64,000 nt of DNA from a bacterium SCSIO 12696 (GTDB lineage: Bacteria > Pseudomonadota > Gammaproteobacteria > Pseudomonadales > Porticoccaceae). The notes under the pieces are model-generated. The model was not told the DNA's origin and did no database searches. It saw only the letters and a program-made list of their open reading frames with translations. Positions 13,131-32,028 of this stretch are shown in pieces. Position 1 is the first letter of the stretch. Every line of letters starts with the position of its first letter. A program made the translations under genes and the position numbers. The DNA lies in the NCBI GenBank assembly GCA_024397955.1, contig CP073744.1, positions 2,236,001-2,300,000 of the forward strand, in the 5' to 3' direction.

Positions 13131-13135
13131 CATTA

Positions 13136-13415
13136 GGGCCTGTTAACACTAATGGAGTCGCCACTGTTGTGACTAAAAAATCGTCAATCAAGGCGCGAGG
13201 AGAGCGGTTTGGTCATTCCCCTCTTCATTATGAGGAGTAGCGACGAGCAACGCCGAGTGACGCTTTTTTAGCCGCAACCCGAAGGGCTGGGGCCATTTTT
13301 CCGCCCAGCTGTGTTATCAGTCGCTTATGTAGAGTGACTACACCGCACTCCTTCTGCCTTGCTGGGCGAAAAAATGGCTCCCAGCAGTGATGATTCCATT
13401 AGTGTTAACAGGCCC
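13136..13415 (+). mobile_element. MITE copy 1 (280 bp, TA-flanked, non-coding)
   Basis: Bounded by terminal inverted repeats GGGCCTGTTAACACTAAT and its complement (23 of the outer 24 bases pair), with TA on each side (13134-13135 and 13416-13417) as expected for TA target duplication in the IS630/Tc1-mariner superfamily. Two internal hairpins are visible: 13168-13187 with 13258-13277 (three mismatches in 20), and 13291-13309 with 13361-13379 (two mismatches in 19). No transposase or credible ORF. Same element as the copies at 28389 and 31739. Confidence 0.88.
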
Positions 13416-13433
13416 TAGCAAAAAGTTTATTTT
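13405..13433 (+). promoter_or_regulatory. Hybrid promoter: -35 in MITE terminal repeat, -10 in flank
   Basis: TTAACA (13405-13410), inside the right terminal repeat of MITE copy 1, is followed after exactly 17 bp by TATTTT (13428-13433). The CpxR-like start codon lies 57 bp downstream. Matches to sigma-70 consensus are 5/6 and 4/6. A prediction from spacing and consensus only. Confidence 0.4.
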
Positions 13434-28374: not shown

Positions 28375-28388
28375 ATTAAAAGATCCTA

Positions 28389-28653
28389 GGGCCTGTTCAC
28401 ACTAATAAGTCGTCACTGTTGTGACTAAAAAAGCGCCAATCAAGGCGCGAGGAGGGTGGTTTGGTCATTCCAAATGAGCGACGAGCAACACAGAGTGGCG
28501 CTTTTTTAGCCGCAACCCGAAGGGCTGGGGCCATTTTTTCGCTCAACTGTGTTATCAGTCGCTTATGTAGAATGACTACACAGCACTCCTTCTGCCTTGC
28601 TGAGCAAAAAAATGGCGCCCAGCAGTGATGACTTAATTAGTGTGAACAGGCCC
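28389..28653 (+). mobile_element. MITE copy 2 (265 bp, TA-flanked, non-coding)
   Basis: Same element and orientation as copy 1, with terminal repeats GGGCCTGTTCACACTAAT and its complement and TA on both flanks (28387-28388, 28654-28655). It is 15 bp shorter than copy 1, mainly from loss of a short GA-rich tract in the loop of the left hairpin. The matching C in the left end and G in the right end (TTCACA/TGTGAA) is a compensatory change compared with copy 1. It ends only 33 bp before the M13 peptidase start codon. Confidence 0.88.
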
Positions 28654-28686
28654 TAAACAATAACACTCAACAAAAGAGGAAGAGTA

Positions 28687-31469: not shown

Positions 31470-31739
31470 ATGCACACCATCATGTACCGAATATGGGTTC
31501 GGCCAGGCCGTGAGCAACAGTTAAAAAGTGTCTGGAAACAGCAAGCGGATATGTTGCGAGAAATGGGGGCGCAGTCCGGTTGGGTGGTCACTTACTCCGG
31601 GGGTGAATGCGCGGCTTACTTGCAATGGCAACAGCGCCAATACTGGGAGAATGTCCGCCAGTATTGCAGCTTGATGGACGAAGTCGCCCGTGCCATGGGT
31701 GATCATATGCTGGGGTGGTTGTCGGAATACCCGGCCTAG
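31470..31739 (+). CDS. Antibiotic-biosynthesis-monooxygenase-like (ABM fold) small protein
   Basis: An 89-residue protein starting MHTIMYRIWVRPGREQQLKSVWKQQ, the beta-strand/helix opening of dimeric alpha-beta-barrel (ABM-like) proteins. Later WVVTYSGGECAAYLQWQ matches the second half of the fold. Enzyme activity and substrate are unknown. RBS AAAGGA. The stop codon TAG is formed by the TA target site plus the first G of MITE copy 3, so the original C-terminus may have been longer. Confidence 0.55.
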   Translation: MHTIMYRIWVRPGREQQLKSVWKQQADMLREMGAQSGWVVTYSGGECAAYLQWQQRQYWENVRQYCSLMDEVARAMGDHMLGWLSEYPA

Positions 31740-32018
31740 GGCCTGTTAACACTAATGGAGTCATCACTGCTGGGAGTCACTTTTTTGCTCAGCAAGGCAG
31801 AAGGAGTGCCGTGTAGTCACTCTACATAAGCGACTGATAACACAGCTGGGCGGACTTCCTGTTTATAAACAGGGGCCCCAGCCCCTGGGGTTGCGGCTAA
31901 AAAAGCGCCACCCGGTGTTGCTCGTCGCTCATTTGGAATGACCAAACCACACGACTCGCGCCATGATTGACGCTTTTTTAGTCACAACAGTGGCGACTCC
32001 ATTATTGTTAACAGGCCC
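31739..32018 (-). mobile_element. MITE copy 3 (280 bp, inverted, TA-flanked)
   Basis: Same element as the copies at 13136 and 28389 but in opposite orientation. Terminal repeat GGGCCTGTTAACACTAAT at the left and its near-complement (one change, TTATTG for TTAGTG) at the right; TA at 31737-31738 and 32019-32020. It sits between the stop codons of two convergent genes. The centre differs from copy 1 by a short palindromic patch (TGTTTATAAACA near 31860). Confidence 0.88.
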
Positions 32019-32028
32019 TAGTAAGGGT

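Follow-up and report, generated by a model that had tools for sequence, protein, structure and literature searches.

Apparently widespread mini-transposons with IS5-type ends and a conserved cloverleaf core, probably mobilised by IS5-family transposases

The ERIC repeats of enterobacteria target TA, are 127 bp long and adopt one fold, and REPINs are built as inverted pairs of conserved hairpins that, in the REPIN/RAYT system, depend on a dedicated Y1 transposase and lack TA-flanked inverted ends. The elements described here, typically about 265 bp long, share with REPINs the inverted pairing of conserved hairpins but have TA-flanked inverted ends. Like ERIC, which passages of one account class among the MITEs as short, mostly intergenic repeats (PMC10969869), they are small and repeated, but length and description set them apart, given their ~265 bp, their two inverted 97-nt arms and their differing ends. 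The excerpted report on MITEPsy1 of Pseudomonas syringae describes a gene-less element with IS5-like ends, for which transposition was seen and widespread relatives were suggested; compared by description, it differs from ours in its 100 nt, its 4-nt duplication and its end sequence (PMC3189936). The Tn3-derived TIME elements (262 bp) are likewise non-autonomous, of similar size and present in Pseudomonas, but are set apart by description through their 38-bp Tn3-type ends and 5-6 bp duplications, as given in passages of PMC4133298. In the IS427 group of the IS5 family (ISPsp10, IS1248 and others), excerpts of PMC3281130 report ends 13-21 bp long, duplications that are mostly of 2 bp and, in Paracoccus, lengths of about 830-865 bp, and ISPsp10 duplicates TA (passages of PMC4133298). 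The elements studied here have IS5-like ends and TA flanks, and in contrast to the IS427 group carry no transposase and enclose a cloverleaf core. Literature searches by sequence strings and by topic found no earlier account of this cloverleaf family, which is widespread and apparently undescribed.

The window analysed here, a 64,000-nt stretch of the genome of bacterium SCSIO 12696, holds three such elements, all gene-less (no transposase), with inverted-repeat ends of about 20-24 bp and with TA dinucleotides, read directly and assigned to no strand, on either side. Copy 1 (13136..13415, plus strand, 280 bp, ends GGGCCTGTTAACACTAATGGA), read directly and recovered by BLAST and by the covariance model (243.1 bits), lies between a left TA at 13134..13135 and a right TA at 13416..13417. 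Its arm 1 hairpin, which carries a palindromic insertion at its tip, occupies 13166..13277 on the plus strand (61.2 bits under the arm model), and the inverted arm 2 hairpin 13287..13384 on the minus strand (100.8 bits). Copy 2 (28389..28653, plus strand, 265 bp, ends GGGCCTGTTCACACTAA, read directly) is flanked by TA at 28387..28388 and 28654..28655, with arm 1 at 28418..28515 (plus, 100.6 bits) and the inverted arm 2 at 28525..28622 (minus, 96.5 bits); its covariance-model score of 271.9 bits holds by construction, since this copy (as L004) sits in the model's alignment, outside which copies 1 and 3 lie. Copy 3 (31739..32018, 280 bp, read directly, 216.1 bits under the covariance model) runs in the opposite orientation, on the minus strand, between TA at 31737..31738 and 32019..32020. 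Its arm 1 is found at 31891..31988 (minus, 89 bits) and its arm 2, inverted relative to the element, at 31770..31860 (plus, 61.1 bits), and a single mismatch separates its own two ends. Copies 1 and 3 measure 280 rather than 265 bp because a palindrome of about 15 bp is inserted in each, at the tip of arm 1 in copy 1 and in arm 2 in copy 3; these extra bases form small palindromes inside the hairpin arms (window positions 13218-13240 and 31850-31872). According to Pfam, copy 1 has a uracil-5 methyltransferase gene and a response regulator gene as neighbours, and copy 2 a DsbD-like gene and a peptidase M13 gene. Folding of copy 1 as DNA gave z = -10.3, with 0 of 200 shuffles as extreme, and a chance origin of the three-copy observation is excluded.

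Direct reading bears out the first-pass annotation of the window in its description of three elements of 280, 265 and 280 bp at 13136, 28389 and 31739 with TA on both sides, which is seen at all three, and the arm model matches both of the proposed internal hairpins in each copy. The compensatory end change that it reported for copy 2 (TTAACA to TTCACA) has its partner change at the opposite end, and its call of a non-autonomous, MITE-like form agrees with short elements that lack a transposase, have terminal inverted repeats and occur in multiple dispersed copies. It had also expected many copies genome-wide, and searching the full genome with the 280-bp copy and with the arm model yielded 22 related elements. 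BLAST with copy 1 returned 10 near-full copies, one internally deleted copy and eight interior-only matches, and TAGGGCCTGTTMACAC, the pattern of the ends, has 15 occurrences in this genome versus 0 when read backwards. The arm model gave 41 matches at E <= 0.01, which we counted as the 22 elements: 19 two-armed, one with a deleted arm and two one-armed with other ends. The end class of the window copies (class A) is present on 11 copies in this genome, one of them internally deleted; ends GGGTCTGTTGACG or a variant are found on eight further copies with a common interior, and ends GGGGGTGTTAGC on one copy. The one-armed relatives have ends GGGAACCTTTGATTAATTCC (L323, G000:C1:2681224) and AGTGCYCCTTGGGGGTRATTTA (L324, G000:C1:617914), the latter being a weak match (E = 0.0036).

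Several side observations concern the ends and their surroundings. At window positions 31736-31740 and in the flanks of other copies of this genome, TA followed by the element's G re-forms a TAG stop codon, which may account for the position of several copies directly at predicted gene ends. Solitary ends measuring about 17-20 bp (AGGGCCTGTTMACACTAA or slight variants of it), which continue into sequence that does not resemble the element, occur mostly in intergenic regions of a congener (G001: L097-L101, L103, L104, L107-L109, L105:6603) and once in the SCSIO 12696 genome (L093, G000:C1:418497), most of them losing similarity near the inverted-repeat end. Palindromes such as AGGGCCTGTTAACAGGCCCT correspond to two ends fused without an interior (L105:2260 in G001; G009:C28:49096; G010:C254:2909 and C380:2837) and could have arisen through slippage from one end's palindromic GTTAAC core to that of the other.

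To describe the family at large, we filtered the 106 elements detected by length (255-300) and discarded one with N runs, which left 91. The typical element folds into a cloverleaf composed of an end stem, a 97-nt hairpin arm, a tiny central hairpin (CCC-N3-GGG, three pairs) and a second, inverted arm; arm 1 and arm 2 can be aligned once one of them is inverted. Conservation lies in the interior, which is common to elements with many different ends, and 66 of the 91 elements are 263-271 bp long. Alignment A1, made up of 51 of 65 length-filtered elements from many genera, is almost gap-free (the arm alignment A2 holds 44 of the 52 arms listed). RNAalifold predicted 83 pairs on A1, with double compensatory changes in 73 of them. 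None of 500 shuffles reached the observed covariation, and 93.9% of cells were paired, compared with 38-43% in slid structures; these controls leave relatedness in, and the structure was derived from the same sequences. An Rfam search of eight loci returned no covariance-model match up to E = 1.

Internal regions of the arms place either GA opposite GA, that is, tandem G-A pairs, or Watson-Crick pairs at the same positions. Across the 91 elements, GA.GA and Watson-Crick states number 55 and 28 at the inner position of arm 1, 76 and 4 at the inner position of arm 2, and 59 and 24 at the outer position of arm 1, with the outer position of arm 2 being less regular (26 in frame, 22 Watson-Crick and 35 shifted by one pair). 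Tandem G-A pairs of this kind would be sheared pairs. Since they interchange with Watson-Crick pairs, the folded single strand seems to be selected, and such tandems are meaningful only in a folded single strand, on one of the two strands of each arm. In arm 1 of eight of the 19 copies in the SCSIO 12696 genome, spanning both end classes, GTCG replaces GGAG and the helix is closed; the partner of GTCG is CGAC in six of these eight. The core is the conserved and probably functional part, and it might act at the RNA level, within read-through transcripts, or as single-stranded DNA when extruded, aiding persistence or movement. Two further ideas about the core were dropped: a low G-U share as proof of pairing at the DNA level (4.1% in the elements versus 5.8% in five tRNAs), and a role as terminator, as the elements have no preference for convergent genes (14 of 80) and scanning copy 1 revealed nothing terminator-like within it.

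The full model matched 124 genomes in a sample of 398 from the phylum, representing 60 of 213 genera, in a scan that scored at most five candidates per genome and gave rough E-values; many of the matches belong to a single family in a different class. When named genomes were scanned with a pattern, 72 stretches were found, mostly gammaproteobacterial, with two labelled only Proteobacteria, one from Thiobacillus and one from a Pedobacter MAG that may be misbinned. Single arms inside other ends were found in the SCSIO 12696 genome and in one further genome, G157. In the latter (L315, L316, L317, L319 and L320) the arm lies within a repeat with ends AACCTAGAATCCTCAGTTGA, which we take to be reminiscent of IS1380 ends. 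This suggests that the arm also resides in another transposon type. G157 also has two arms separated by 1.8 kb, near an ORF that by eye looks glycosyltransferase-like. We considered whether they mark an autonomous element in which arms enclose a gene and rejected this, since the two arms belong to two different repeats.

Both flanks are TA in 60 of the 91 elements, one flank in 25 and neither in six. The base before the left TA is a pyrimidine in 72 of 77 cases and the base after the right TA a purine in 60 of 67, so that YTAR is favoured. A search for empty TA sites in relatives had been suggested as a check, and we searched seven genomes of Stutzerimonas and its kin with the joined flanks of 11 insertions. 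One element (L176) is absent from four of the six other genomes searched, with no match at the site in the remaining two; in the four, the site is contiguous and of the expected length but reads GA or CA instead of TA. At a second site (L178), one genome read closely (G458) is empty and reads ACTAGG, where the occupied genome reads ACTA, element, TAGG; over a longer stretch, CTATATACTAGGACC stands against CTATATACTA, element, TAGGTCC. TA is present once in the empty and twice in the occupied site, by an alignment that lies beside a further difference between the two genomes of about 13 bp just downstream of the insertion. The same joined site has another contiguous match in G455 (69%), and the joined sites of L180 and two of L146 aligned poorly and were excluded from the clean empty sites. 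As far as these alignments go, the empty sites in Stutzerimonas and kin point to precise insertion and fit a duplication of TA, with TA once against twice at L178 but no TA in the relatives at L176. In six copies from two congeners (G001 and G002), only the element is common with the window. A copy with apparently the same flanks and no TA occurs in three Pseudomonas species (L120, L131 and L161) and is probably an old shared insertion. Among 80 placed elements, after 11 of the 91 were left out for short flanks, the gene context is tandem for 48, divergent for 18 and convergent for 14. The joined flanks form one ORF at 26 of these 80, with ORFs called by length only, and some insertions seem to interrupt genes.

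The ends vary widely among copies, yet left and right agree within most copies. For the 10 class A copies, the first 20 bases show 0.40 mismatches within versus 2.51 between copies, a value as low being reached by one of 20000 permutations. Over all 91 elements the figures are 0.82 and 8.85, with 0 of 20000 permutations as low, in a comparison biased by a detection step that demanded similar ends and left elements with unmatched ends uncounted; in both tests the permutation ignores relatedness. Three copies in one Nevskia MAG have interiors that are 94-97% alike and first 20 bases that are only 55-75% alike. From such cases we infer that ends are exchanged. Template switching between inverted repeats is documented and fixes stems (excerpts of PMC8794818), and it would act on matched ends in the same way as selection for ends that can pair; our data fit both.

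Which transposase recognises these ends? The first-pass annotation had assigned the elements to the IS630/Tc1-mariner type, with which the TA flanks of the window copies agree. The corresponding Pfam family DDE_3 (PF13358), however, was not found in the SCSIO 12696 genome and was present in only one of eight genomes searched; around that single locus (L112) there was no close class A end, only matches with three mismatches. IS5-family elements, in turn, carry the same ends together with TA flanks. A genome of the same order (G051) contains an NF033580 element of 803 bp that is bounded by GGGCCTGTTCACACTAATT and flanked by CTA/TAG, its transposase scoring 121 bits over the pieces in which it is listed, one of them with a stop. 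In Paraburkholderia phymatum, an IS5-type ORF with stops upstream in every frame lies between ends GGCCTGTTCACACTA with TA flanks, the ends being of the same kind except for a T in place of the first G on the left. Both of these IS5 elements may be degenerate or frameshifted. Seven of 30 further NF033580 loci, several of which are cut by contig ends, have TA-flanked end pairs around the match, including ends GGGCGTGTTAACACTAAT and GAAGCGGTCTCAAAATT, which resemble two of the less common types of hairpin-element ends (GGGCGTGTTAACAC in L116 and GAAGCGGTCTCAA in L171). The IS5 elements found here are 803-881 bp long and TA-flanked. Because IS5 elements have matching ends and TA flanks, and because the IS427 group, to which NF033580 would correspond, mostly makes 2-bp duplications, we assign the ends to IS5 and not to IS630, and consider an IS630-type origin very improbable. 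Seen from outside, the element is an IS5-type MITE whose own genome yielded no helper: neither PF01609 nor NF033580 detected an IS5 transposase in it. Given that no IS5 or IS630 transposase was found there, present mobility in this genome is unsupported. The arm model had no match at 10 loci with IS5 elements of this type; the core is therefore no remnant of them.

Starting from what was observed directly, namely the copies, their ends and TA flanks, the empty sites in relatives, the IS5 elements with matching ends, the covarying fold and the spread through the phylum, we think it likely that these are non-autonomous elements mobilised by IS5, with exchangeable ends around a conserved folded core. 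An IS5-family transposase (NF033580, IS427-like) would recognise the matched ends and move the element in trans, inserting it at YTAR and duplicating TA. The ends, of about 20-24 bp, would be open to exchange and would determine the IS5 transposase by which a given copy can be moved. The core, in which two 97-nt hairpins, inverted relative to each other, enclose the tiny CCC-N3-GGG hairpin, would be selected as a folded single strand, and this module would repeatedly gain new IS5-type ends. Ends would be kept matched as one is copied onto the other, most simply by hairpin-templated template switching, in addition to selection favouring ends that a single transposase is able to pair.

A more conventional explanation is that the elements are ordinary IS5-derived MITEs whose fold is a functionless by-product of a foldback origin and of hairpin-templated correction. 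The IS5-like ends and the documented ability of template switching to fix stems speak for it, as does the pairing of GTCG with CGAC, which templated correction could give. We nevertheless regard it as unlikely: the core is absent from the 10 IS5 loci, the length is kept in most elements, the family is present in nearly a third of the sampled genomes, and tandem G-A pairs, which neutral correction should erase, persist in most arms. It is also conceivable that the core is an RNA signal useful to the host, such as a 3'-end stabiliser or processing site, that rides in transposon ends and is kept for the host's benefit. The copies that abut predicted gene ends and re-form a stop would suit such a signal, and there are precedents in RNase III, which cuts Correia transcripts, and in ERIC, which affects mRNA decay (both in passages of PMC10969869). 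The one-ORF junctions at 26 of the placed elements and the Rfam result argue against it, and we find it rather improbable.

IS5 mobilisation of a folded core with exchangeable ends, the explanation we prefer, has a bolder extension. As single arms are found inside repeats with quite different ends, swapping may perhaps extend across transposase families, and it is tempting to speculate that the hairpin core is itself the replicating unit of a phylum-wide selfish module that survives by swapping its ends repeatedly, within IS5 and perhaps across families, and acts as folded RNA or single-stranded DNA. We hold this only tentatively; if it were true, the core could live off any transposase at hand.

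The usual view takes MITEs for deletion derivatives bound to a single parent element, whereas here the ends differ and a folded core is kept across genera. What would surprise a specialist is that a cloverleaf of near-fixed length has been kept over large distances while its ends differ, as a well-covarying structural family without a match in the Rfam library searched. This raises two testable questions, whether bacterial MITEs switch the transposase that mobilises them and whether it is hairpin-templated template switching that holds the two ends of a transposon in agreement. If our reading is true, these elements would be an unusually modular genomic parasite.
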